Positions 2,845 to 44,559 of a stretch of DNA of 51,733 nucleotides are shown piece by piece. A model generated the notes under the pieces. That model saw nothing but the letters and a program-made list of their open reading frames with translations. It was not told the DNA's origin and searched no databases. The position numbers were made by a program, and so were the translations under genes. This stretch comes from Bacteroidota bacterium (GTDB taxonomy: Bacteria > Bacteroidota > Ignavibacteria > UBA10030 > SZUA-254): positions 1 to 51,733 of the forward strand of contig JASEHD010000005.1 in NCBI GenBank assembly GCA_030019075.1. Direction: 5' to 3'. Within the stretch, counting starts at the first letter, position 1. Every line of letters starts with the position of its first letter.

Positions 2845-3264
2845 ATGAAGAGATTATTGATAGGTCTGCTTCTCTTACTACCTATACTATACCTGACATC
2901 TTGCAAAGAAAAAGCGACTGAGCCAAAGTCATCTTATGATATTTACGGAAGCTGGGTCTTTAAAGGGCACCATGATAGTATTACTGTGATGCAAAAAACT
3001 TCTGGTCTTGATTCTAACAATTATGGTTTTATCATTTATCCAGATGGCAACTTTCTTGAGCGAAAGAATGCCGGATGGTGTGGAACCCCACCAATATCCT
3101 ATGCAAATTATTCGGGACATTGGAAATCTAAAGAAACAAATACTCTAAAAATAGATGTGGGTTATTGGGGTGGACAAACCAGTTATATTATGCAAATAAC
3201 AACTCAGAATATCCGTTTTGATAATACAACTATTGACCGTATTGTAAAAAATATAGAATGGTGA
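2845..3264 (+). CDS. Small lipoprotein of unknown function (139 aa)
   Basis: The ATG at 2845 is chosen because AAAGGAAG lies just upstream (2831-2838) and a proper lipoprotein signal follows: MKRLLIGLLLLLPILYLTSC, with lipobox LTSC and Cys20 as the likely lipidated residue. A longer in-frame start at 2704 would run through the attC-like site and is rejected. The mature part contains YDIYGSWVFKGHHDSITVM and later a GHWKSKETNTLKIDVG stretch, which resembles small lipocalin-like or META-like beta-barrel lipoproteins, but I cannot assign a family. It probably sits on the periplasmic side of a membrane. Its place right after an attC-like site suggests a captured cassette or a gene next to a cassette insertion point. 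Confidence 0.6.
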   Translation: MKRLLIGLLLLLPILYLTSCKEKATEPKSSYDIYGSWVFKGHHDSITVMQKTSGLDSNNYGFIIYPDGNFLERKNAGWCGTPPISYANYSGHWKSKETNTLKIDVGYWGGQTSYIMQITTQNIRFDNTTIDRIVKNIEW

Positions 3265-3406
3265 TCCTCTCCAATCACTATTTTACTCACCACTCACCAA
3301 CTCAGCACTCACGTTCCTGCACTGTAATCATCCATGTACTTCTTCTGCTCGGCAGTCAGCTTGTCGATTTTCAAGTCCGCCTAAGGCAGATTGCCAATTT
3401 AACACC
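3257..3406. repeat. Direct repeat copy A (duplicated ahcY 3-prime end plus flank)
   Basis: This stretch repeats about 150 bases found at 4100-4250. Positions 3293-3356 are identical to 4151-4214 over 64 bases. Identity continues with scattered changes to about 3374, and a short block TTGCCAATTTA reappears at 3391-3401. To the left, homology reaches the ATGGTG just at the lipoprotein stop, with a 14-base gap. Together with copy B it brackets the toxin-antitoxin pair. Confidence 0.85.
3309..3406 (-). pseudogene. Remnant of a second ahcY 3-prime end
   Basis: Read on the minus strand this encodes GLKIDKLTAEQKKYMDDYSAGT and a TGA stop, the same C-terminus as the intact ahcY. The differences from the intact gene are synonymous (AAG/AAA, CTA/CTG, GGC/GGA), so this copy diverged while still under selection. 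A palindrome TCCGCCTAAGGCAGA (3376-3390) replaces about seven bases and shifts the frame. Upstream of it a short diverged NINGVKLA stretch remains, after which homology fades. Confidence 0.75.
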
Positions 3407-3504
3407 GTTGATATTACTAACCATTCTACTCTCGCTTTCTTTTAGAATTTGCAGTCATTTATATTTTTCTTAAATTGATTATATGAATGGTGGAAAGGAA
3501 TTAT

Positions 3505-3735
3505 ATGCAAATTTTTGATCGAATTACTTTTGACCCTCAGGTCATGGGTGGACAAGCATGTGTTCGTGGTTTACGTATCCCTGTCTCATTAGTTATCAAT
3601 CTCATAGCCAACAAGATGTCGATGAAGGACATATTGAAGGAATATCCGGATTTAGAAGAAGGAGATATCCAGCAATGTCTTCAATATGTAGCGTGGTTAG
3701 CGAAAGAAGAAACTCATTTATTGGCGAACGTGTGA
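3505..3735 (+). CDS. DUF433 family antitoxin
   Basis: The 76 aa product MQIFDRITFDPQVMGGQACVRG... matches the DUF433 (VapB54-like) family: a short winged-helix protein with the ITFDPxVMGGxxCVRGLRIPV signature that pairs with DUF5615 PIN-like toxins. The ATG at 3505 is preferred over the in-frame ATG at 3487 because AAAGGAA (3494-3500) sits five bases upstream. Its TGA stop at 3733-3735 is followed immediately by the toxin ATG at 3736, typical of translational coupling. Such antitoxins usually bind their own promoter, but no operator is obvious here. The pair is bracketed by the two ahcY 3-prime repeats. Confidence 0.85.
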   Translation: MQIFDRITFDPQVMGGQACVRGLRIPVSLVINLIANKMSMKDILKEYPDLEEGDIQQCLQYVAWLAKEETHLLANV

Positions 3736-4100
3736 ATGAAGTTCCTTGCCGACATGGGCATTTCCAATACGACTATTGCATGGCTGAAACAATTTGCCAT
3801 GACGCTCTCCACGTTCGCGAAGTCGGTATGAGCAGTTCTCCCGATAGTTTAATCCTCGAAAAAGCAAAAAAAGAAAATCGGATCGTTCTCACATGCGATC
3901 TAGATTTTGGAGCTTTGATGGCATCCTCAAAGGACAAGCTGCCAAGTGTTATAATATTCCGACTTGATGATGAAACCCCACAGAATATTAATATTCGTCT
4001 AAATGAGGTACTCAGCACCGCTTCAAAAAAAATAGATGAAGGGGCAATAATTAGTATTGAACAAAATAAATATCGCATTCGGCAACTCCCGATAAAATAA
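3736..4100 (+). pseudogene. DUF5615 PIN-like toxin, frameshifted
   Basis: The first frame reads MKFLADMGISNTTIAWLKQF, the conserved start of DUF5615 toxins with its early Asp. The continuation CHDALHVREVGMSSSPD...ILEKAKKENRIVLTCDLDFGALMA lies one base back in another frame. The switch falls at about 3792-3800 (CAATTTGCC) and equals one missing base; 365 bases span the gene, one short of 366. Without repair, translation ends after about 31 residues at a TGA. Both halves remain well conserved, so the lesion is recent, a sequencing error, or a programmed -1 shift; the short T-run is a poor slippery site. The family is a putative ribonuclease related to PIN domains. Confidence 0.75.
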
Positions 4101-4250
4101 ATGGTGCCCATCTCTGATCACCATTTTACTCACCAATCACTAACTCACCGCTCACCAACTCAGCACTCACGTTCCTGCACTGTAATCATCCATGTACTTC
4201 TTCTGCTCGGCAGTTAGCTTGTCGATCTTCAAGCCCATCGTTGCCAATTT
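4100..4250. repeat. Direct repeat copy B (native ahcY 3-prime end plus flank)
   Basis: This is the partner of the repeat at 3257-3406. It starts right after the toxin stop and runs into the last 28 or so codons of the intact ahcY. The non-coding part is rich in CTCACCAACTCA-type units (4125-4166), which recur at four other intergenic spots of the window. Confidence 0.8.
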
Positions 4251-7177: not shown

Positions 7178-8152
7178 TTAATGAAATTCTATTTCGGACG
7201 AATCGCCGATATTGATACGCCTAAAATTACCATTGATAACAGCATTGTTACCGATGAGAGAGTTTTCGAGCAATGCCATTGATATTTGTGCATCATCGCT
7301 CACAATCGAATTACGGATGATCGAATCATTAACTTTTGCACCATCTGCAATTGTTGCATACGGACCTATAATTGAATGGGTTACTGTAGCATGTGGAGAA
7401 ATAAATACAGGCGGATTGATTATCACACCGTCTAAAGCTGTTCTATCCGAAATTTTATCCAACAGATGCCGATTCGTTGCCAAAAGAGTTTCGGGTTTCC
7501 CACAATCGTACCAGCCCTGAACATCAAACGTTTTCATCCTTTCTCCTTTTTGTATCATTAGTTGGAGCGCATCTGTAAGCTGAAACTCACCCTTTGTTTT
7601 TTGATCTTTCTTAAATAAATCCGTAATACATTGAAGAAGAAGCTGAGGATTTTGGATCCAGTAAAGACCAACGAGGACAAGATTGCTTGAAGGATGTTCG
7701 GGTTTTTCTATCAATTGTTTAACATAACCACCCTCCAATTCAACAACACCGAAACGACGTGGATCCTCAACTTGCTTTACACCAACAGAGGAATATGATT
7801 GTTTAATAACCGGTTTCAGATCAACGTCAAAAATCGTATCACCAAGAATTATGAGAATTGGAGCGGAAGAAAATGTTTCCCTTGAAAGAAACACGGCGTG
7901 TGCTATTCCTTTTGGTTCTAACTGTTCAATAAATGTGCATTTTATGTCGTAATTGTTCTGAATATATTCACGAATTTTTTCTCCCATGTTACCAACAATT
8001 ATTGTAGCTTCATCGAATCCATCCTTAATTATTTTATCGAGAATATGTCCAATAATTGGTTTACCCCCAACGTTCAAAAGAACCTTAGGTAGTGTATATG
8101 TATGTGGCCGAAGTCTAGTACCAAAACCAGCAACGGGAATAATTGCTCTCAT
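7178..8152 (-). CDS. Sugar-phosphate nucleotidyltransferase with left-handed beta-helix tail
   Basis: The 324 aa protein opens with MRAIIPVAGFGTRLRPHTYTLPK, the NTP-binding GxGTRLRP loop of the RmlA/GlmU/ManC superfamily, and carries GDTIFDVDL as the metal-binding Asp region. Residues from about 240 on show hexapeptide-repeat character (isoleucine or valine every six positions: VFISPHATVTHSIIGPYATIADGAKV), a left-handed beta-helix. It should transfer a nucleotide to a sugar 1-phosphate; dTDP-glucose or UDP-glucose type activity is plausible but the sugar and nucleotide cannot be told from sequence alone. It is first in a possible operon with metK and starts just upstream of tRNA-Glu. Confidence 0.85.
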   Translation of the reverse strand: MRAIIPVAGFGTRLRPHTYTLPKVLLNVGGKPIIGHILDKIIKDGFDEATIIVGNMGEKIREYIQNNYDIKCTFIEQLEPKGIAHAVFLSRETFSSAPILIILGDTIFDVDLKPVIKQSYSSVGVKQVEDPRRFGVVELEGGYVKQLIEKPEHPSSNLVLVGLYWIQNPQLLLQCITDLFKKDQKTKGEFQLTDALQLMIQKGERMKTFDVQGWYDCGKPETLLATNRHLLDKISDRTALDGVIINPPVFISPHATVTHSIIGPYATIADGAKVNDSIIRNSIVSDDAQISMALLENSLIGNNAVINGNFRRINIGDSSEIEFH

Positions 8153-8417: not shown

Positions 8418-8550
8418 ATGTGAATTGCTTACAAAGATACTCAAAATCCATACGATAATCAAGGATTTTTCAGTTTGTGGATAAAAAAATGCAGCACTAC
8501 TACCGCATTATTCTAATGATTTTAAAACCTTTGAATTATTCAATTCATTG

Positions 8551-8624
8551 TAGGCCCGACGCGAATCGAACGCGTAACCTACAGCTTAGAAGGCTGTTGC
8601 TCTATCCAATTGAGCTACGGGCCC
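8551..8624 (-). tRNA. tRNA-Arg (anticodon TCT)
   Basis: The reverse complement is GGGCCCGTAGCTCAATTGGA and onward, with anticodon stem ACAGC/GCTGT and loop CTTCTAA, giving TCT. The T-arm is ACGCG-TTCGAAT-CGCGT. The acceptor closes with a G1-T72 wobble and discriminator A. A damaged second copy lies 1.1 kb away at 9716-9811. Confidence 0.92.
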
Positions 8625-9139: not shown

Positions 9140-9508
9140 ATGGATGGAAAAGTATCTATTCTTATTGCTGAAGATAATGAACAAGTCGGTACAACTTTAT
9201 TGGAACATCTTACCAACAAGCAGTACGATGCCACTCTCGCTCTTGATGGAGAGCAGGCATTAAATCAAATGATTAATAAGAAATTCGATGTCGTTATTCT
9301 CGATTTGAAAATGCCTAAAATCAGTGGCTACGGAATTCTGAAATACATTAAATCGAGTGTCCCTGCCACGAAGGTCATTGTTTTGACTGCTTACAGTGAC
9401 TTTAAAAACATCGAAGAGTGCAAAAGACTCGGCGCCGACCATGTCATAGGCAACCCCTACGACATGGAAATACTATTTTGGACGATAGAATTAGTGACGG
9501 CGAAGTAA
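9140..9508 (+). CDS. Stand-alone receiver (CheY-like) response regulator
   Basis: The 122 aa product is a single receiver domain: acidic pair EDN (residues 11-13), phospho-acceptor Asp in VVILDLKMP (about residue 54), and the Thr in VIVLTAYSD. A GAGGT ribosome site precedes the ATG. The normally invariant Lys of the KP motif is replaced: the segment reads GADHVIGNPYD where GADDFIxKPF is usual. Loss of this Lys commonly abolishes or alters phosphorylation-induced signalling, so this may be a pseudo-receiver. It has no output domain. It lies between tRNA-Arg and a broken second tRNA-Arg copy. Confidence 0.9.
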   Translation: MDGKVSILIAEDNEQVGTTLLEHLTNKQYDATLALDGEQALNQMINKKFDVVILDLKMPKISGYGILKYIKSSVPATKVIVLTAYSDFKNIEECKRLGADHVIGNPYDMEILFWTIELVTAK

Positions 9509-9657: not shown

Positions 9658-9715
9658 AAAAAATCTCCTTTTTAATTAGCAATTCCATTAGCAGAAGTGA
9701 AAAAAAACTTGAAAA

Positions 9716-9811
9716 GACGCGAATCGAACGCGTAACCTACAGCTTAGAAGGCTGATGCTCCCCGCCCGAACGCCATTCAAGCGGGCGGGTATCCAATTGA
9801 GCTACGGGCCT
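9716..9811 (-). pseudogene. tRNA-Arg(TCT) pseudogene split by a GC-rich palindrome
   Basis: This repeats the tRNA-Arg at 8551-8624 from its 5-prime end through the T-arm with one substitution, but the 3-prime acceptor strand (CGGGCCT) is gone and replaced by A-rich sequence. In the D-arm, exactly before the GAGC strand of the D-stem, a 29-base palindrome is inserted (9761-9789): arms CCCGCCCG and CGGGCGGG around a 13-base loop. It cannot form a normal tRNA. No other gene lies in 9658-9859. Confidence 0.88.
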
Positions 9812-21397: not shown

Positions 21398-23599
21398 TCA
21401 TACTTCCCTCACTTCTAACACCTCTTCTCCAAGCATATCAATAATTTTCACTGCTACCTTTGTTTTATCTCTGGGTGCAGGAATCTCGTAATTGCCAACT
21501 ACCAAATCAGTCTTCTTTTCAGGAACGTCTGAGAGAACAACGTTGAATACTTCCCCGTTGTAGTTTGTATCTATCATAACGCAATCCACCATACTTCGCC
21601 AATCGTCTATCTTCGGCTGGAGAATACCGACTTGCTGATTTAAACGCTCGATGATGCTCGGTGATATAAAATCTTCGATAACGACCCGAATGTAGGTCGA
21701 CGAGTCTCGTCGACCTACCCGAGAAACTTTCACTCTTACCTTCGCCGACTCGTGCTTGATAAATTTGCCGTACTTTGGATCAGTCCGCAACTCAATTACT
21801 TCAATTTTGTTTGGAACATCTCCCTTTTTCCGTAAACGATTCCATTCCTCAATCCAAGCATCGGTGGCAAGTTCTTTACCGAGACAAACGACTTTAATAT
21901 CTCTATCCTCGCTCGGACGTGCTTTGAGTTCTTTCTTGATTTCCTCAAGGTCAACGGGACTTAAGGGATGATTGAATGGCACAATCTTAACCAAGCGTTT
22001 GCCAAGTGTTCCATCGAAGAAGGCATCGTTGTGTGTGCGGCTTATGCCGATATGCTCGCACGCAAGATTGACTGCCTCGTTGTGCTGTATTTGTAAATCG
22101 TAATCGTTGACACGATAAACGGCAAATGACAACTGAGATGCCGTCACACTGAGCGAAGTCGAAGTGTGTTCTAAGCCCAACTCGCCCTGCATCCCCTTCT
22201 TTTTCTTTTCTTCTACTTGCTCATTGATAATTGTTTGCAGACGCTTGCTCGTTGTTTGGATTGCGCCTTTGTTTATATCGCAGCCGATCCACCTCCGACC
22301 AAGCTTTTGTGCGACTGCTGCGGTTGTGCCTGAGCCGATGAACGGATCGAGAACGAGATCGCCGGGATTGGAAGATGAAAGTAATATCCTTTCAAGAAGT
22401 TCTTCTGGTTTTTCAGTTGGATAATCCGTCTCAGAACCAGCTACATCGGTCCAAATGGATTGTATTTCGACACCTTCAAAATCGTCCTCATATTGTTTAA
22501 AGTTTGGAATTCCTTTTCCATCTTTCGACCAAACTATTCGACCCATCGCTTCTAACTCATCTAGTGCCTTCAATGTATCTAATTTTGCGCTAGAACTTAG
22601 GTTAGGACTAATAAAACCCGGAATTGCCCAATGTCGTCCAAAACCTATAAGTGCGGGATTTATTCCCTTCCATATTTTTCCAGATTTACCAGAAGATGTA
22701 CCCGGTGCGGTCAATGGTGATTCACGCCATCTTCTTCCATCGACATCAATTTTACGAAACATAGTCTCAAGGTAACTCTCAGTATACTGTGTGTATATCT
22801 GATTCCAGATTGACTTTTCTCCTTTGGTATAGAAAAGAATATTATCATGTATATGATTGTAATATTTGCTTCCCCCTCGAGAGGTTGTTCTCTTCCAGAT
22901 GATTTCGTTTTGGAAATTATTTGATCCAAAAATTTCATCAAGTAATGCTCGCAGGTGATGACTTTTCCTCCGATCACAATGAAGATATAAACTTCCATCT
23001 TCCGAGAGAAGTTCCTTCAACAACAATAATCTCTCATACATAAACTGCAAGTAATTATCATTCGTCCAGATGTCGGTGTATTGGATTTGCTCACCGAGCG
23101 TGTAGGTTTCGCCGTCTAACTTTGTTGTACCTTTTGCCCCACGTAGAGAAACTTTGCGCACGTAATCTGCGCCGCTATCAAACGGCGGGTCGGTGGTAAT
23201 TAGCTTCACTTTACCGCGAAACCCGTTGGCAAGCAAATGTGCAAGCACTTCTTTATTGTCGCCGTGGAAGAGAAGTCCGGCTTTGGGGTAAGTTCTGGGC
23301 CAGTCACTCCAAGACTTTCCCGTCATTCCGAAATGCTTTTGTTCGGAATCTGAACTTAGCAAACTCGGTTTAGATGCTGAAACTAGTTCAGCATGACGGA
23401 TTAAGGAGGTGGGGTCAAATGTTTCCGCCAACTGTGCAGGAAATGCCGTCACTTGCGTGAGCGGTCGCTTGCCAACCCAAGTAAGCATAGGTCTGCCTTT
23501 AGCGGCGGTGATATTCACCGAAGTGGCAGCCACAGGCTTCATGTCTGCGTTCTGAGCTTTTTTCGAGATACCTTGCTTCATTTTCTTCGTTTTCTTCAT
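21398..23599 (-). CDS. Type III-like DNA adenine methyltransferase (Mod)
   Basis: The 733 aa protein is a beta-class N6-adenine methyltransferase: the catalytic motif TDPPF (136-140) precedes the SAM-binding motif DPFIGSGTTAAVAQKLGRRW (about 416-435), the order expected for Mod subunits. The middle (about 220-390) should hold target recognition. It forms an operon with fic and res upstream. Three unrelated palindromes lie in frame: residues 68-93 (RHAELVSAS...HFGMT, 78 bases), about 477-485 (HTSTSLSV) and about 628-636 (VGRRDSSTY). None interrupts a catalytic motif, so activity may persist. Specificity is unknown. Confidence 0.88.
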   Translation of the reverse strand: MKKTKKMKQGISKKAQNADMKPVAATSVNITAAKGRPMLTWVGKRPLTQVTAFPAQLAETFDPTSLIRHAELVSASKPSLLSSDSEQKHFGMTGKSWSDWPRTYPKAGLLFHGDNKEVLAHLLANGFRGKVKLITTDPPFDSGADYVRKVSLRGAKGTTKLDGETYTLGEQIQYTDIWTNDNYLQFMYERLLLLKELLSEDGSLYLHCDRRKSHHLRALLDEIFGSNNFQNEIIWKRTTSRGGSKYYNHIHDNILFYTKGEKSIWNQIYTQYTESYLETMFRKIDVDGRRWRESPLTAPGTSSGKSGKIWKGINPALIGFGRHWAIPGFISPNLSSSAKLDTLKALDELEAMGRIVWSKDGKGIPNFKQYEDDFEGVEIQSIWTDVAGSETDYPTEKPEELLERILLSSSNPGDLVLDPFIGSGTTAAVAQKLGRRWIGCDINKGAIQTTSKRLQTIINEQVEEKKKKGMQGELGLEHTSTSLSVTASQLSFAVYRVNDYDLQIQHNEAVNLACEHIGISRTHNDAFFDGTLGKRLVKIVPFNHPLSPVDLEEIKKELKARPSEDRDIKVVCLGKELATDAWIEEWNRLRKKGDVPNKIEVIELRTDPKYGKFIKHESAKVRVKVSRVGRRDSSTYIRVVIEDFISPSIIERLNQQVGILQPKIDDWRSMVDCVMIDTNYNGEVFNVVLSDVPEKKTDLVVGNYEIPAPRDKTKVAVKIIDMLGEEVLEVREV
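21692..21718. repeat. Perfect 27-base palindrome in mod (VGRRDSSTY element)
   Basis: The arms GTAGGTCGACGAG and CTCGTCGACCTAC flank a single central T. Twenty-seven bases equals nine codons, so the frame is kept. Confidence 0.85.
22145..22168. repeat. 24-base palindrome in mod (HTSTSLSV element)
   Basis: CACACTGAGCGAAGTCGAAG plus TGTG forms a hairpin with arms CACACT and AGTGTG. Twenty-four bases equals eight codons. It resembles the widespread CACTTCGACTTCGCTCAGTG repeat. Confidence 0.75.
23321..23398. repeat. 78-base cruciform repeat in mod (RHAELVSAS element)
   Basis: The outer arms CGTCAT (23321-23326) and ATGACG (23393-23398) enclose two hairpins: ATTCCGAA/TTCGGAAT (23325-23349) and ATGCTGAA/TTCAGCAT (23374-23394). 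Seventy-eight bases is exactly 26 codons. The RHAELVSAS translation is well known from repeat-derived insertions in bacterial ORFs. Confidence 0.85.
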
Positions 23600-23737
23600 G
23601 TTTTTTATTTAAAATTTCTTTATGATACTTCAGTAACATTCGGAACAGGCAATGTAAATTTTTTCACGTTTCCTTACATTGGAGGAATCAACTGAAAGTT
23701 CACTTACATTGTAGTATTGGTATCGTTCATTTTGAGC

Positions 23738-24898
23738 TTATTCAACAATTTTGAGGATTTCTTGAGCTATAAAATGTTGTGGGCGTTGTGTTCTGCCTGA
23801 TTCTTGTACAATTCCTTTTTTTGTAAGCTGTTTGAGTGCCTGCATTGCAGTCGGGTGTGTTACCTTGAACTTACTCTGAATTTTTGTGGCTGTTACTATC
23901 GGTTGAATAAAAAGATAATCAGCTATTCCCAACATTAACGGTGTACTTCGGGCGCTTTGTAGGGAATCACGCCATCGAAGTTGTAAGTCCTGCAACTGTT
24001 TTGCTCTGACCACAGCGTCTTTCGATTGTTCATTAACACCTTTTAGAAAAAACAACAACCAATCATGCCAGGAACCTTTTTTGCTGATCGATTGCAAATG
24101 ATTGTAATACTCATCTCGGTGGTTCTCAAAAAATGCGCTCAAATAAAGAAGCGGTAACGGTAATAATTTCCAATGAACGAGTAGAAGCGTTAGAAGCAAT
24201 CTGCCTATCCGCCCATTTCCATCGAGGAACGGATGAATCGCTTCAAATTGGTAGTGAATAAGAGCCAGACGAACCAATGGCGGATATTCATTAACTGAAT
24301 GCAGATAATTCTCGAAAGCATCAAGAGAATCTTTCATCTCATCGACGGGCGGAGGAACGAAATGAGCTTCATTGAGAGTGCATCCGGGAGGACCGATCCA
24401 ATTCTGACTTTTTCTGAATTCACCTGGTGTTGCATATTCACCACGAATATTTTTCATAAGATGCTCATGAAGTTCTCTTATAAACCTCAGACTAATGGGT
24501 AACGATTCAACTCGCTTAAGTCCGTACTCCATAGCTCTGACATAATTTAAGACTTCTCTTACATCATTTTTTAATTTAACATTCGTCTGAGTCTGTTCAC
24601 CTGCACCAAAGGCATAGATGTCGGATATATCAGCCTGAGTTCCTTCAATTTTAGATGACAAAACTGCTTCGCGATTCATGAAGGGGCGTATAAGAAGCGA
24701 AGGATTTGCCATCGTACGCCCAAGTCCTGCAAGTTCACCAAGTGCGCGATCCGCTTCGGAGAGTGTGCGAATAAGTTCTGTATCAAGATCAATTTGTGGT
24801 GGTAAAGTATTCGGTATAAAGGCATTATAGGATACATCACCTGAACCTACTTTAATCAGTTTTCCTGTGGTACTATGTTTAAAATCTTCCGGATTCAT
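23738..24898 (-). CDS. Fic family protein (AMPylase-like) with HTH tail
   Basis: The 386 aa protein has the full Fic motif HPFLDGNGRIGR (222-233), with catalytic His222, and an N-terminal inhibitory helix SSKIEG (81-86) of the (S/T)xxxE(G/N) type, so it is a class II self-inhibited Fic. Its N-terminal part matches Fic_N/DUF4172-like sequence. The C-terminus (about 330-386) has a winged-helix pattern FKVTHPTAMQALKQLTKKGIVQE, suggesting DNA binding. The start overlaps the res stop by four bases (ATGA), so it is translationally coupled and lies between res and mod of the type III locus. Target unknown. Confidence 0.9.
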   Translation of the reverse strand: MNPEDFKHSTTGKLIKVGSGDVSYNAFIPNTLPPQIDLDTELIRTLSEADRALGELAGLGRTMANPSLLIRPFMNREAVLSSKIEGTQADISDIYAFGAGEQTQTNVKLKNDVREVLNYVRAMEYGLKRVESLPISLRFIRELHEHLMKNIRGEYATPGEFRKSQNWIGPPGCTLNEAHFVPPPVDEMKDSLDAFENYLHSVNEYPPLVRLALIHYQFEAIHPFLDGNGRIGRLLLTLLLVHWKLLPLPLLYLSAFFENHRDEYYNHLQSISKKGSWHDWLLFFLKGVNEQSKDAVVRAKQLQDLQLRWRDSLQSARSTPLMLGIADYLFIQPIVTATKIQSKFKVTHPTAMQALKQLTKKGIVQESGRTQRPQHFIAQEILKIVE

Positions 24899-27531
24899 CC
24901 TCTCTCCTTTTCCTTGATAAATTCCAGGCTCTTGCTTAATTGATCATCGGCAATCACATCCGTTTTTGTATAAAGAATATGATACTTCAGACGATCTGGA
25001 TTTAACTTTTCGTACTTCGTAAGCGCAATCGCCTTCCTTCCCTCAATGGTGATCGGCTCCTGTCCGTTCTTCTCACGTTGAAGGTCTTGCTCTGTCGTGT
25101 TTTCCCAGCGTGCGTCTTTAATTTCCACTATCAAACATTTGCCGTTCTTATTTCTGATAATGAAATCGGGAGTGTAACGATGCCAGTTTCCATCTTCACC
25201 TTTGTACTCGACGTAGAAATCTGTTTTCCTTGGGTCGGTTAATGCACCTGTGAAATAGATGTCCTCGATTTCTTCGGGCATCAACCGTATCTGAGCGAGC
25301 ATCCGCTCAAAGAAATTCAACTCAGGATTCGAGTCAAAGTTATAAGGATCGTAATGGAAACCAAATCCATTAACACGGTCTTGCCAATCCTTCAAAGGCT
25401 GAATCAACTTCCCTCTATCAACAGGATAAGAGATTTCAGCCGTGTACACGTCGCTTCCATCGGCATCAAGCTCTTTCATGAATCCTCCAAGCTTTACCAG
25501 TGCTAACGCCTTCTCTATCGTCTCTTCTTTGACTTCATACGTTGAAGTCTGATTTTCAATTTGTTTTCTAAGATCGGCGATATGGAGAAGAGGTATTTCA
25601 TCTTCAGGATAGATGCGTTTCAACTCATCGTACACCCGCCAAAAGTCAATATAATAATTTTGTGAGATATCAATTGCAGCCGTATATACATCAACCATTG
25701 ATGGTGTTGTTTCAATGACGGTAGCTTCATCGACTTGCTGAAGAACGGAATAAGTTGACTGCTGCTCGGCTACGGTGTAACGCACTTCTGTAAATGTTTC
25801 TGTTTCTGAAAGTGTCGGTCGAACAAACTGGAATTGTATATTCCCAGCATCTTTTTTCACAACCGTTTTGATAATCTGGCGAACGACAAGTTTTGGAATA
25901 TTATGTTTGATAATCTTAATGTAGTCGTTTTTACTTTTGCTGTTAGTTCGATTAATGTCATCCAACGAAACACCATATGTTTCTCGCAATGCGTTGTCAA
26001 GAATCGAACGATTATCCATCGAGAGAAAGATGCTTGCCTTCTTTGAATTACCGGGAACTTGCCTCAAGCATCGGCATGCCGCCTGTAACACAAAGCTGCT
26101 GCTTGTAAGTCGGCGGGCAAGAGCACAAGAAAATAATGCTGGGACATCCCAACCTTCTACCCCTCGATCAACAAGCAACGCAATACGATGCTGTGAATCT
26201 TTTAACCGAAAACGGTCGAAGTTCGCTTTGTCTTCTTTCTTTGTGTGATGTTCAAGAATTAGAGTCGTAGATAGATTCAGCTCAAGAAGCTTTGCTTCGA
26301 TGAACGGACGCAGTTCTTCCACATCATCGGTTTGCGGAAAATACATCGCAAGTTTAGCTGGCGTTCCATCGGGAAGTGTAACGTTGCCATATTCTTTAAA
26401 GAAATCTTCTATAACTTTTGCAACGTAAGCTTTCACATTATCTTTAAAATCGAAGGCGTGAATGTTTCCTGAAATATCTTTCAGGATTCCCTGCTGAATC
26501 CCTTCTGATAGACCGTACCACACAACAACGTCACGCAGAAGCTGCTTCTTGTAGTAAGGAGTGCCGGTTGTGTTGACAACACAAATTAGATTTGGACTTT
26601 GATGATGGAGATAGTCAACAGTCTTTCTGACTTTCTTCAACTCCGTATCAAGCGTCTGACCGTAAGTATGGTGTGCTTCATCAGAAAACACAGCGAGATG
26701 AGGTAGTGAGGCAAGTTTTCTCAACCGTCTATTTGCAACTTCTGTTCTCGCCTCGTCTTCTTTTTGTGCTGAGACAAAGAATCCACCTATATCGGATTTT
26801 CGTATTGTCTCTTTTTGTATTCTTATTTTTTCGGTGTTCGTTACAACAACATTGAAAATACTTTTTTCAATGATCGGAATATCCGGATCACCATCTCTCG
26901 TAAATGTTATCTTGACCGATGCGGCAAATTGTTTGTAGAGTCGTTGTGGTAGAATTCTATCGTATGGCAGGGCAGCTAATTCACGTAACGACTCGATGAT
27001 TGTTTTGCCTGGAGCAAATACCAATGCGTTTTGGACAAATGGTCCTTGTGGATAATCAAACGCCATCCCAAATTCAGTTGCAATGATTGCACCAATCAAT
27101 GCAGTCTTTCCGGAACCCATCGTAAGAGCGAGGATGTAACTTGAATAATCTAAATTCAGAGTTTCTCGCAAAGCATGAAGTCGGAATTCACGTACAAAAT
27201 CGTCATCACTTTTTATTTTGTTCAAGAGAGCATTTAAATCGAAGTCAACTTTTTCGAAAGCAGTCGAAGGTATCCCAAGTGCTTTTAACAAATCAGATTT
27301 GTTTGGGAAAAGTATTTTGTAAAGGTCTAATATATGAGGTGTGTCTTCGATCAGTCGGAGATACCAATAAGTTTCGAGCGCACGAATTTGTGGTGGCCGA
27401 AGCTTGAAGCCACTGCCGTCAGGATTAGAAGCCCACTCAAGTATCTCAGCAATGGTTGAGTATTCAGAGTTGTAATTGGCTTTCCGCCAATCAGAAACTT
27501 TTAATGCTAACTCTTGGTATAGCTGTTTCAT
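24895..27531 (-). CDS. Type III-like restriction enzyme, Res helicase-nuclease subunit
   Basis: The 878 aa SF2 protein has Walker A in LTMGSGKTALIGA (about 136-148), the DEAH box in FSDEAHHTYGQ (about 283), and motif VI-like ALARRLTSSSFVLQAACRCLR further on. Near the C-terminus, TPDFIIRNKNGKCLIVEIKDA (about 783-803) is a PD-(D/E)xK nuclease motif. This is the Res layout: ATP-driven translocation plus cleavage. It is first in the operon res-fic-mod. Together with Mod it should restrict unmodified DNA. The 27532-27764 gap upstream holds only repeats and no clear promoter. Confidence 0.9.
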   Translation of the reverse strand: MKQLYQELALKVSDWRKANYNSEYSTIAEILEWASNPDGSGFKLRPPQIRALETYWYLRLIEDTPHILDLYKILFPNKSDLLKALGIPSTAFEKVDFDLNALLNKIKSDDDFVREFRLHALRETLNLDYSSYILALTMGSGKTALIGAIIATEFGMAFDYPQGPFVQNALVFAPGKTIIESLRELAALPYDRILPQRLYKQFAASVKITFTRDGDPDIPIIEKSIFNVVVTNTEKIRIQKETIRKSDIGGFFVSAQKEDEARTEVANRRLRKLASLPHLAVFSDEAHHTYGQTLDTELKKVRKTVDYLHHQSPNLICVVNTTGTPYYKKQLLRDVVVWYGLSEGIQQGILKDISGNIHAFDFKDNVKAYVAKVIEDFFKEYGNVTLPDGTPAKLAMYFPQTDDVEELRPFIEAKLLELNLSTTLILEHHTKKEDKANFDRFRLKDSQHRIALLVDRGVEGWDVPALFSCALARRLTSSSFVLQAACRCLRQVPGNSKKASIFLSMDNRSILDNALRETYGVSLDDINRTNSKSKNDYIKIIKHNIPKLVVRQIIKTVVKKDAGNIQFQFVRPTLSETETFTEVRYTVAEQQSTYSVLQQVDEATVIETTPSMVDVYTAAIDISQNYYIDFWRVYDELKRIYPEDEIPLLHIADLRKQIENQTSTYEVKEETIEKALALVKLGGFMKELDADGSDVYTAEISYPVDRGKLIQPLKDWQDRVNGFGFHYDPYNFDSNPELNFFERMLAQIRLMPEEIEDIYFTGALTDPRKTDFYVEYKGEDGNWHRYTPDFIIRNKNGKCLIVEIKDARWENTTEQDLQREKNGQEPITIEGRKAIALTKYEKLNPDRLKYHILYTKTDVIADDQLSKSLEFIKEKERG

Positions 27532-40244: not shown

Positions 40245-40745
40245 ATGTACAAAACCATCAACGATTTCACCACCGACTGGAAGAACGAGAGTGAATCTAC
40301 ACTTAAAATCCTTAAAGCTCTCACCGATACGTCGCTTCCACAAAAAGTGACCGCCGAAGGCAGAACGCTTGGTTTTCTCGCATGGCACATCGCATTAACA
40401 TTGGGAGAGATGGGTGGAAAAGCGGGATTGACAATCAACGCACCTGCCGAGAATACACCCGAACCGACATCGGCAGCAGTAATCGCCACGGCATACGAGA
40501 AAGCAGCCAAATCTATTGGCGATGAGGTACAAAAGAAATGGAGCGATGCGATGCTCAAAGAGGAAATCGAGATGTACGGAGAGAAGTGGACACGGTCAGG
40601 AACTCTCGCAGCACTTATTAAACACGAAATCCATCACCGCGCTCAGATGACTGTGCTTATGCGTCAGGCAGGATTGAAAGTTCCGGGTGTATATGGTCCA
40701 TCGAAGGAAGAATGGGCGCAGTACGGCATACCGCCGATGAAGTGA
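40245..40745 (+). CDS. DinB-fold protein
   Basis: The 166 aa four-helix protein has the DinB metal-site histidines: His49 in FLAWHIALT and the pair in KHEIHHRAQM (about 127-132). A strong AAGGAG ribosome site precedes the ATG. Members include thiol transferases and damage-induced proteins of unknown function; I cannot choose. Its last 13 codons (KEEWAQYGIPPMK) are repeated 2.25 kb downstream at 42953-42994, on the far side of the methyltransferase-endonuclease pair. Confidence 0.88.
   Translation: MYKTINDFTTDWKNESESTLKILKALTDTSLPQKVTAEGRTLGFLAWHIALTLGEMGGKAGLTINAPAENTPEPTSAAVIATAYEKAAKSIGDEVQKKWSDAMLKEEIEMYGEKWTRSGTLAALIKHEIHHRAQMTVLMRQAGLKVPGVYGPSKEEWAQYGIPPMK
40704..40745 (+). repeat. Direct repeat, intact copy (dinB 3-prime end)
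   Basis: These 42 bases match 42953-42994 with only three substitutions. The first 26 bases are identical. Confidence 0.88.
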
Positions 40746-40807
40746 CGCAAAGCGGTATTCCTATTCATCTTTGGATTCGTAGATAGATTTTGTATTTTAT
40801 GTTTATT

Positions 40808-42121
40808 ATGCAGAATATTTTGGAAATAGAAAACTCGGTTCGAAATCAAACCCAGACGGGCGACAAATCGTTTCATTCCTGGTATAAATTTGTTTTGGGA
40901 TATCCACCCCACCTTGTACGCCATTATATTTACAAGTTTGGCATAACTCCTGGGCACTTTGTTCTCGATCCTTTTTGTGGCACTGGAACCACTAATGTTG
41001 AATGCAAAAAATTAAATATTCATTCGCTTGGCTTAGAGGCGAATCCCGTTGTTTACTTTGCTTCCCGGGTGAAAACCAACTGGCAGACTCCACCTTCAGA
41101 AGTACGTCTATCATTCAAAGAGGTGATTTCTTCGGCATCTGCTTCTCTGGATAAGTTTGGCCTTTCCGAAGATGTTTCCCTGTTTGTTCAGCCGCATCGT
41201 GGCACTCCGCTTGCGGTCGAGCCAGTATTAACTGAAGACCAACTTGTTGTTTTGCCCAAGGACTTCATAAGTCCGAAGCCATTGCGTCGAGTACTCATTC
41301 TGAAAGAATGCATTGAGCAAGCCGCAACCGAGCAAGCTCGGGACTTGTTTCTTCTCGCCCTTGCAAACCTAGTCGTTAATCACGCAGGCAACGTCGCTTT
41401 TGGTCCGGAAGTCTACAGCACCAAACCAAAGAAAGATGCGTACGTTCTCGACTTCTTCTATCAACTCGTGGATCGAATGATATGCGATCTTGATTCACAA
41501 CCAACAATCGCCGGTAGAACTGAGATCGTCCACGGAGATGCAAGGCGTGTTTCCGATTTTTTCCCCTCACATCATGCTGATGTAAACTTTATCATCACAT
41601 CTCCACCATATCCGAACGAGAAGGACTATACACGCACAACTCGGCTTGAAAGTGTTATCCTCGGACTGATTTCCAGTAAAAAAGGTCTGCGTACACTCAA
41701 AGAACAACTCCTCCGCAGCAATTCTCGCAACATCTTCGTTGCCGACAACGACCAAGACAATGTAAAGTCGTTCGATTCCATAAATCGGATAGCTAGAGAA
41801 ATTGAAGAAAAGCGGATTCATCTGAAGAAAACATCGGGCTTTGAGAAGCTCTACCACAAGATCGTCAAACACTATTTTGGCGGTATGTACCGCCATTTTG
41901 AAAGCTTAAAACCAATGTTGGACCTCGATGCTCGTCTTGCTTATGTCGTAGGCGATCAAATGTCATTCTTCCGTACTCACATTCCCACCGCCAAAATTCT
42001 CGCTGAAATAGCTGAGAGTCTTAGCTACAAAGTTGAAGAAATTGAACTATGGCGAACGAGGCTTGCCACCGCCACTAAGATTCAAATAGAAGAAAATGTT
42101 CTTATACTCCGTAACAAGTGA
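40808..42121 (+). CDS. DNA methyltransferase of a type II-like R-M pair
   Basis: The product is about 437 aa from the ATG at 40808; an ATG at 40799 and a TTG at 40790 are also in frame. The SAM-binding motif VLDPFCGTGTTNVECKK (about residue 53) comes first and the catalytic ITSPPYPNEKDYT (about 262-274) later, with the specificity region between. SPPY is typical of cytosine-N4 methyltransferases, though adenine-N6 cannot be excluded. It is 15 bases upstream of a PD-(D/E)xK-like endonuclease gene, forming an R-M pair. The first codons overlap the region just after dinB, and the pair is bounded by a second copy of the dinB 3-prime end. Confidence 0.85.
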   Translation: MQNILEIENSVRNQTQTGDKSFHSWYKFVLGYPPHLVRHYIYKFGITPGHFVLDPFCGTGTTNVECKKLNIHSLGLEANPVVYFASRVKTNWQTPPSEVRLSFKEVISSASASLDKFGLSEDVSLFVQPHRGTPLAVEPVLTEDQLVVLPKDFISPKPLRRVLILKECIEQAATEQARDLFLLALANLVVNHAGNVAFGPEVYSTKPKKDAYVLDFFYQLVDRMICDLDSQPTIAGRTEIVHGDARRVSDFFPSHHADVNFIITSPPYPNEKDYTRTTRLESVILGLISSKKGLRTLKEQLLRSNSRNIFVADNDQDNVKSFDSINRIAREIEEKRIHLKKTSGFEKLYHKIVKHYFGGMYRHFESLKPMLDLDARLAYVVGDQMSFFRTHIPTAKILAEIAESLSYKVEEIELWRTRLATATKIQIEENVLILRNK

Positions 42122-42136
42122 AAGGAAAACCGATAA

Positions 42137-42916
42137 ATGCCATCTAACGCACCTCAGAAAGACTATGATCGAATCATAACTAATCTATTCTTTTCCAAAT
42201 TCAAAGAAGGTTCCTCCGAAATCGCTTTCACTAAGGATGAACTTGTAGCCGTTGCAAGGAAGCTCAAAATTACACTACGCAACCCGCCCGACGTTGTTTA
42301 TACATATCGCTCCCGTTCAAATCTTCCGCAAGCTATTCTTGATAAAGGCAGCTGGGTCATCAAGCCAAAGGGTAAGGGTCGTTTTTCATTTCTCAAATCC
42401 AAGCGTAAGCCTTTCGTGGACATCCAAGAAGGCTTGCATGCAATTGAAATTCCTAACGCTCTTCCTGAAATTGTTGAGAAACACGCTTCCGAAGACGAAC
42501 AGGCGTTGCTCGCATCTATCCGCTACAATCGCCTTGTCGACATCTTTACTGAGATTACTTGCTTTCATCTCCAGTCTCACATCAGAACTACGATCGAAGG
42601 CGAAGGTCAGATTGAGATTGACGATCTCTATGTTGGCATCGACAGGGATGGTACAGAATATATTCTTCCCCTTGAAGCCAAGAGTCCAGATGACAGAGAT
42701 AAGCTTGGCTGGATTCAGATTTCCAATATGGTTAGTTTCGCACTCCAGAATTTTCCCAAATTGAAATGTCGCCCGATTGCAGCTAAGCCGGCTGGTCACA
42801 ACAAAATCTATCTGATAGAATTTGACAACAATCCAAATTCAGAAGATGTCAGCATTGTCCAGGTCAAGCTATACAAACTCAAACGGGAGAAGGGAAAAGG
42901 GGCGCACTCAACATAA
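42137..42916 (+). CDS. Probable restriction endonuclease partner (PD-(D/E)xK-like)
   Basis: The 259 aa protein contains IEIDDLYVGIDRDGTEYILP followed by LEAKSPDD (about 158-185). The spacing of the acidic D-D and the ExK within strand-rich sequence is the PD-(D/E)xK nuclease core, as in several type II enzymes. The AAAGGAAAA ribosome site overlaps the end of the upstream methyltransferase gene, so both are coupled. It should cut DNA lacking the partner methylation. I do not know the recognition site. An alternative is a nuclease-like regulator of the methyltransferase. Confidence 0.7.
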   Translation: MPSNAPQKDYDRIITNLFFSKFKEGSSEIAFTKDELVAVARKLKITLRNPPDVVYTYRSRSNLPQAILDKGSWVIKPKGKGRFSFLKSKRKPFVDIQEGLHAIEIPNALPEIVEKHASEDEQALLASIRYNRLVDIFTEITCFHLQSHIRTTIEGEGQIEIDDLYVGIDRDGTEYILPLEAKSPDDRDKLGWIQISNMVSFALQNFPKLKCRPIAAKPAGHNKIYLIEFDNNPNSEDVSIVQVKLYKLKREKGKGAHST

Positions 42917-42952
42917 TAGAACCCATATTGATCCAAAGGAATACCTTGAGCA

Positions 42953-42994
42953 AAGGAAGAATGGGCGCAGTACGGCATGCCACCGATGAAATGA
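42953..42994 (+). pseudogene. Second copy of the dinB 3-prime end
   Basis: It encodes KEEWAQYGMPPMK plus TGA in the same orientation as dinB. The three differences from the intact end are all at third codon positions: ATA to ATG (Ile to Met), CCG to CCA, AAG to AAA. It lies 36 bases after the endonuclease stop. Confidence 0.87.
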
Positions 42995-43032: not shown

Positions 43033-44559
43033 ATGAATCTTAAGTTATTCGGTTTCATCGCGGGCTTATTTTTATTTTTCCTAATAATTTTATTGCCGAC
43101 ATTTGAGCAATTCAGCTCTACCGCTCAACCTCATGTCGCAAGGTCTATGCAGCTTGTTCTTGCTGTACTGGCGCTCATGGCAATCTGGTGGATAACTGAA
43201 GCGATTCCTATTCCGGCAACCGCTCTGCTACCTGCTATTTTATTTCCTTTATTGAAAGTCATCGGGACACAGGGTGGCGTTCTATACGAATTCAATTTTA
43301 AGAACACGCTGCTTAGCTACGCTAACCCGGTTATTTTTTTATTCCTTGGCGGTTTTTTAATCGCTGGTGCAATGCAAAAATGGAAATTGGATCGGCGCCT
43401 AACACTTTGGATTCTTACAAGAGGAAATATTGCAAGTAATTCACACACTATTCTTCTCGGCATCATGGCAATGACCGCATTTCTCTCGATGTGGATTTCA
43501 AATACTGCAACAGCCGCAATGATGCTTCCATTGGGGATAGGTATCATTTCGTTGATCGGTGCAGAGCCTGGGAAATCTCGTTTCGGCACGGCAATGATGT
43601 TAGGTATCGCATGGGCAGCATCAATTGGAGGTGTTGGAACAATTATAGGTTCGCCGCCAAACGGGATTGCACTCGGTATCCTGAATTCGACTTTTGCGAA
43701 CGACTCCACATATCGGCAAATTTCTTTTTTAGACTGGATGAAATTCGGTGTTCCTTACGTCTGCCTCTTTGTTCCGGTCGCTTGGTATGTACTTAAAAAA
43801 ACTTTCCCCCCAGAAGTGAAAAGTATACCGGGCGGAAAAGAACAGCTTATTGCTGAAAAAAATAAACTTGGCTCACTATCCCCCGGTGAAAAACGAACGA
43901 TCATAGTAGTTTCCCTTGCAGTAATATTGTGGATAACAAACCCGTTCTGGGATTTTCTACTCCCATCAATTATTGCGGAACAATTGCAATGGATTGATGA
44001 ATATACAATCGGTTTGTTCTGCGGTGTACTCCTGTTTATTATCCCTGTGAATTTCAGGGAAAACGCATTTGTACTTCATTGGCGTGATACAAAAATTATT
44101 GACTGGGGAACATTAATCCTATTTGGAGGTGGAATCGCCCTCTCGGAGGGAATGTTCAAAACGGGGCTTGCCTCGTGGATTGCCACATCGTTTGTTGGTT
44201 TGTTCGGGATTCCGTCAATATTCCTTTTTGTGGTCATCATTATCCTGCTTGTTGATTTCCTCACTGAGGTTACATCTAATACTGCCGTTACATCCATGAT
44301 GGTACCGATTATTATCTCGATTGCAATAAGCACAGGTAGTAATCCCATAACACCCGCGATAGCGGCTGCTGTAGCGGCATCAATGGCTTTCATGTTACCT
44401 GTTGCAACACCACCGAATGCTCTTGTTTATGGGACTGGTTATGTAAAACTAAAGGATATGATTCGAGCCGGCTTTATATTGGATATCTTAGGATGGCTGT
44501 TCACAACATTTGTGCTTGTGGTAATTGGCGGCTGGATTTTTGGGGTTATTAGTTTTTAG
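43033..44559 (+). CDS. SLC13/DASS family anion:sodium symporter
   Basis: The 508 aa membrane protein has about 11-13 hydrophobic segments and both DASS signature repeats: [17 protein letters not shown] in the first half and [16 protein letters not shown] in the second, each with the SNT sodium/substrate tip. [20 protein letters not shown] is the usual N-terminal block. Substrates in the family are dicarboxylates, citrate or sulfate; none can be chosen here. Its TAG stop overlaps the convergent lptB stop by four bases. Confidence 0.9.

Follow-up and report, generated by a model that had tools for sequence, protein, structure and literature searches.

A predicted restriction-modification pair between direct repeats of a DinB-family gene end, with toxin-antitoxin modules bracketed likewise in the same genome

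We examined a window of 51,733 bp, a complete contig from the metagenome-assembled genome of an uncultured Ignavibacteria-type bacterium, in which a putative type II restriction-modification (R-M) unit lies between two direct repeats of the 3' end of a DinB-family gene. Our preferred explanation, to which we assign a probability of roughly 0.7, is that the unit entered the 3' end of this gene by insertion with long target duplication. The strongest support for this reading of the dinB site comes from elsewhere in the same genome, where toxin-antitoxin modules are bracketed in the same way at ahcY, at glmM and at a gene of outer-membrane type.

The resident gene (40,245 to 40,745, forward strand) encodes a member of the DinB family (Pfam PF05163, E = 2.5e-25), with orthologues at 65-83% identity in members of its family. 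The name dinB, used in the preliminary description, stands here for a protein of this four-helix-bundle family and does not mean DNA polymerase IV. The duplicated 3' end is the gene's own: copy 1 of the repeat (40,704 to 40,745, forward strand) consists of its final 13 codons and stop. As had been noted previously, these 42 bp recur in the same orientation behind the endonuclease gene, with 39 of 42 positions identical (93%); this second copy (42,953 to 42,994, forward strand) is a non-coding remnant. We measured a start-to-start distance of 2,249 bp, which bears out the earlier figure of about 2.25 kb, and the resident gene is intact, so the insertion left it whole, as proposed. Ungapped pairs matching at 39 of 42 positions would be expected by chance about 9e-11 times (of the order of 1e-10) in a window of 51.7 kb. 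When the resident dinB was searched against the genome (3.18 Mb, 98% complete), it matched at only two places, both of them the repeat copies, with no third copy present. The three differences between the copies do all fall at third codon positions, as reported; however, the first of them (ATA/ATG) exchanges Ile for Met, and just two are synonymous. We do not take the restriction of the differences to third positions as demonstrating coding constraint: with three sites, three out of three is expected by chance one time in 27, and the amino-acid change weakens the argument further.

Between the repeats we found a methyltransferase gene and a nuclease gene and nothing else coding, in agreement with the first account of the interval. 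The methyltransferase gene, M, runs from 40,808 to 42,121 on the forward strand (with an alternative TTG start at 40,790) and matches the PADLOC model MTase_II (E = 1e-33). Pfam PF01555 matched it as two permuted pieces (E = 1e-12), the motif DPFCGTG preceding TSPPY. The endonuclease gene, R, follows on the same strand at 42,137 to 42,916 and matches PADLOC REase_II (PDLC03404, E = 1.3e-67); a Pfam search returned zero matches for it, and its candidate PD-(D/E)XK residues lie in IDDLYVG...LEAKS, the catalytic residues being picked by eye. Gene families and adjacency predict that M and R together form a type II R-M system. The inserted unit would span 40,746 to 42,952 on the forward strand, and M and R are its sole genes; no transposase or integrase is present. 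A gapped alignment of the unit ends yields an imperfect inverted repeat, with a left arm (GGTATTCC...TTTGGAT) at 40,754 to 40,776 on the forward strand and a right arm (GATCCAAAGGAATACC), also found by repeat search, at 42,930 to 42,945 on the reverse strand. This inverted repeat is weak (nominal P = 0.003, for one of six units tested). We also considered an integron cassette with an attC hairpin at the unit ends, and rejected it, as the ends gave no significant fold.

The same two genes occur in the same order in another genome of the family (G003), in one Bacteroidetes MAG, in three Planctomycetes MAGs and in one archaeal MAG, always among unrelated neighbours, and their adjacency is conserved in seven loci. 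M and R make up a self-contained unit, present in several phyla (Bacteroidota, Planctomycetota and an archaeon) at locations unrelated to one another. The M and R proteins of G003 are 83% and 90% identical to those of the window, and blastn aligned the window to the G003 locus (L070) at 76.7% over 2,152 bp. The core shared with G003 begins at 40,764, 19 bp past the dinB stop, and ends at 42,908, 7 bp short of the R stop. Because this conserved DNA fits between the repeats, the bracketed DNA is the foreign part. Direct repeats bracketing M-R were found in none of the six other loci of the unit, nor in five distant members of the phylum. Relatives of R were absent from phages and viral contigs, and plasmids yielded distant ones only (<60%); the dinB tail was not found in viral contigs either. 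Two further features were seen near the pair in other genomes. In G003 (L078), a 49-bp direct repeat of 82% identity (7,399-7,447 and 8,519-8,566) brackets a hydrolase gene just upstream of M-R, and in the Bacteroidetes MAG (L079; 5,298-5,561, minus strand) an N-terminal fragment of an integron-type/phage integrase lies directly upstream of M-R in divergent orientation.

Copy 2 adjoins a gene for an SLC13/DASS anion symporter (43,033 to 44,559, forward strand; TIGR00785, E = 1e-100). Positions 4,170-40,742 of the window are collinear with 1,069-34,271 of contig 51 of a related genome, G004, the only informative relative, in which the SLC13 gene is found behind ahcY, at the block's other end. 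Behind dinB in G004, G007 and G013 we found an MgtC-like gene and/or a sigma factor, named by eye from their translations; the source genome contains no close homologue of the sigma factor that is usual downstream of dinB in relatives. Since other genes stand behind the relatives' dinB and SLC13 lies elsewhere, the R-M unit sits at a rearrangement breakpoint. On gene order, the dinB-SLC13 junction is a rearrangement junction, most simply explained by an inversion of the 36-kb block in either the lineage of G004 or that of the source genome. R-M systems at rearrangement junctions have precedents (PMC4615327, PMC3031569). The preliminary description had looked to relatives for an empty dinB-SLC13 junction with a single 42-base copy. 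No relative has one, the dinB neighbours in G004, G007 and G013 being different. It had also named a complete ancestral second dinB as the competing history, and a tandem dinB of the same orthologous group is absent from 14 genomes of the family. The idea of an inserted unit thus holds up as regards a foreign, self-contained M-R pair and a whole dinB, but it lacks the empty site and is complicated by the breakpoint location.

We then compared both repeat copies with the dinB tails of relatives. In G004 and G013 the gene ends in AKEEWAQYGMPPMK. Copy 2 translates as exactly this tail followed by a stop, and the agreement extends to the GCA codon ahead of the 42 bp, while the resident tail reads SKEEWAQYGIPPMK. 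The GCA codon (Ala) at 42,950, where the similarity of copy 2 to the relatives' dinB starts, is common to copy 2, G004, G013 and G007; the resident gene has TCG (Ser) there. Copy 2 exceeds copy 1 by three or four in base matches to relatives, and over 45 bp there are five differences between the two copies, six between copy 1 and G004, and five between copy 2 and G004. These comparisons indicate that non-coding copy 2 keeps the older protein tail and that the resident gene is the diverged one. They fit a target duplication that is old and whose two copies have both drifted, and they also fit the tail of another dinB copy. The repeat copies of the sister cases in this genome have drifted apart by 5-13%.

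A repeat-pair scan covered 1.37 Mb of the source genome, in which the bracketed addiction modules comprise one R-M pair and at least four toxin-antitoxin modules. One of these sister cases lies in the window itself, at the other end of the same collinear block as the R-M unit. There, a toxin-antitoxin-like module of a DUF433 gene (3,487-3,735; PF04255, E = 5e-22) and a DUF5615 gene (to 4,100; PF18480, E = 1e-17), on the forward strand at 3,487 to 4,100, stands between two copies of the ahcY 3' tail on the reverse strand. The inner copy (4,129 to 4,236, reaching about 4,100) includes terminator-like sequence downstream of ahcY, and the outer copy (3,267 to 3,378, extending to about 3,257-3,402) is a tail remnant; the copies share a 94-nt core that is 96% identical. 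The frame of the DUF5615 gene is broken near its start. By blastn, the ahcY loci of 19 relatives have one tail apiece. At the 5' end of glmM (L145 10,397-11,155, on contig C149), an antitoxin-like ORF and a ParE/RelE toxin gene are bracketed by a 59-bp target repeat; G004 and G009 have a single copy at this site, and the DNA upstream of it in these two genomes corresponds to what adjoins the outer copy here. At the gene of outer-membrane type on contig C151, a DUF4258 plus YgiT/MqsA-type module lies between 53-bp direct repeats (L147 3,224-4,028), and G004, G003, G008 and others have one copy there, joined to the same leader. On contig C147 (L143 7,243-8,732), a PIN-domain toxin gene lies between 198-bp direct repeats of 87% identity. 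The target repeats at ahcY, glmM and the outer-membrane-type gene are 53-150 bp long, with relatives single-copy at these sites. At glmM and C151, insertion with target duplication would leave just the pattern observed, one copy in G004 and other relatives and a native flank there that runs on from what is here the outer copy, and cases with repeats in gene 5' ends and single-copy relatives are target duplications. As a control, 0.5 Mb of G007 was scanned, which yielded two repeat pairs but zero bracketed toxin-antitoxin modules; this sample is too small to say that the process is limited to the source genome. Near the glmM insert we noticed a second small toxin-like gene (L145 11,854-12,117, by eye) in a region that is also missing from G004.

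Under insertion with long target duplication, a complete type II R-M unit of about 2.2 kb would have inserted at the 3' end of the DinB-family gene and duplicated about 42-46 bp of target. An intact dinB would then border the unit at one end and a non-coding copy of the dinB tail at the other, the repeats at the dinB site being the target duplication. Opposite strands may have been nicked at points separated by some tens of bp; a linear piece of DNA with the module would then have been captured, and fill-in would have produced the direct repeats. With the G004 tail as the ancestral state, copy 1 would since have acquired three changes and copy 2 two. Inserts bracketed by repeats should be easily deleted again by recombination, and cells losing R-M or toxin-antitoxin modules would be killed, so persisting inserts would tend to be addiction modules; selection may be the reason why such modules predominate. 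We found no ends shared among the R-M, toxin-antitoxin and insertion sequence (IS) inserts, and no match to Ku (PF02735) in the genome at 98% completeness. Unrelated insert ends and a genome lacking Ku give no support to a shared transposase site or to classical end joining. A broader proposal, which we offer tentatively and at less than even odds, is that this genome generally captures kilobase-size DNA without a transposase and with target duplications of 40-200 bp, that the survivors are mostly addiction modules, and that some of the events mark rearrangement breakpoints.

In favour of target duplication at dinB we count repeats beyond chance, a conserved core between them, the lack of a transposase or integrase in the unit, the occurrence of M-R at unrelated sites, and like-built inserts elsewhere in this genome at sites that are single-copy in relatives. 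Against it we count the missing single-copy dinB-SLC13 junction in relatives, which leaves the pre-insertion state unseen, the lack of flanking repeats around M-R in other genomes, the repeat's stopping exactly at the stop codon, which would be mere luck if the target were random, and the purely synonymous differences of copy 2 from relatives, as though it were the recently coding tail of another dinB. In an unlikely alternative, copy 2 is the leftover of another dinB copy, brought there without target duplication by rearrangement or by gene replacement, for example through imported DNA that recombined by homology within dinB at one end and was joined illegitimately at its other end. The insert's location exactly where gene order departs from that of relatives, with SLC13 at the opposite block end in G004 and no close homologue of the usual sigma factor here, would suit such a history, as would a copy 2 that encodes the family consensus tail, is equidistant from copy 1 and G004, and loses similarity at the stop codon. 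Yet the family's genomes have no tandem dinB of the same orthologous group, there is no dinB trace upstream of copy 2, and the other bracketed modules with single-copy relatives include repeats in gene 5' ends, which are target duplications.

Site-specific integration, in which attL and attR sites would flank a small element with a dinB tail of its own, moved by an integrase acting in trans, and would now be seen as the repeats, seems to us improbable. The gene 3'-end position, the gene kept intact and a repeat length resembling an att core would be in keeping with it; this genome does hold a tRNA-targeted integrative element that encodes an integrase and has 67-bp repeats (L138), and the integrase fragment in L079 adjoins the same M-R unit. 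But the unit has no integrase, relatives carry no other element at dinB, viral contigs lack the dinB tail, the copies differ by 7-11%, M-R occupies unrelated sites elsewhere, and sister cases lie in gene 5' ends. We give still less credence to transposition by an IS1634-like insertion sequence, even though the genome has an IS1634 transposase (E = 1e-82) with a 223-bp repeat (L178) and this family is known for long and variable target duplications, of 8-514 bp in two of its members (PMC2266710). At their ends, the R-M and toxin-antitoxin inserts resemble neither the IS ends (AGTTTGACAC) nor one another. That the arrangement is an assembly artefact is scarcely credible. The window is one whole contig among the 226 of a metagenome-assembled genome, but a short repeat with non-identical copies argues against an artefact, as does the fact that M and R find their nearest relatives within the same family.

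Insertion with long target duplication is already known for R-M systems (Nobusato 2000 and Furuta 2010, as reviewed in PMC3874152), including long, variable duplications without a linked mobile element (PMC3874152). Published accounts of R-M units describe duplicated targets of about 100 bp, an association with rearrangements, and terminal inverted repeats that are imperfect (PMC3874152, PMC3031569). The unit described here is likewise type II and free of a transposase, with putative direct target repeats in the range of tens to about 100 bp, a rearrangement link and imperfect inverted repeats at its ends. It differs in that the one-copy empty site was not seen at dinB, in its host, an uncultured Ignavibacteria-type bacterium, and in that toxin-antitoxin modules of the host genome have the same structure. 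The IS1634/IS1549 family (PMC2266710) resembles the present cases in its long, variable direct repeats, and one such element is in the genome, but its ends are not those of the R-M unit, which lacks a transposase. Integrative elements with att sites at gene 3' ends also insert right behind a stop codon and duplicate the gene tail; here, in contrast, the integrase is absent, the repeats have diverged and the unit occurs at unrelated sites. What is unusual is the set of toxin-antitoxin inserts built alike in one genome of an uncultured lineage. The route by which R-M and toxin-antitoxin modules get into chromosomes when no transposase is involved is poorly understood, and this genome offers multiple examples. 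With repeat identities of 87-96%, its inserts differ in age, and at some of the sites relatives have a single copy; they constitute a natural series for the insertion reaction, which could also be used to ask whether addiction explains the persistence of excisable inserts.

Other bracketed items were recorded as well. At L178 4,927-7,256 (C181), an IS1634-family element lies between 223-bp direct repeats, 100% identical and containing part of a neighbouring gene, which fit the long target duplications of that family. At L195 8,590-9,401 (C199), a REP-associated tyrosine transposase gene stands between 53-bp direct repeats. The contig is rich in defence genes: type III-like R-M genes, mod- and res-like, that enclose a Fic-family-like gene (21,398-27,531; absent from the G004 block and assigned by eye), and a DUF262-like gene at 963-2,747, assigned by eye from its translation. 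Finally, a tRNA-Arg (TCT) in the window is duplicated (8,550-8,624 and 9,708-9,811) around a receiver-domain gene (9,140-9,508); a 29-bp palindrome (CCCGCCCGAACGCCATTCAAGCGGGCGGG) is inserted in the second tRNA copy.
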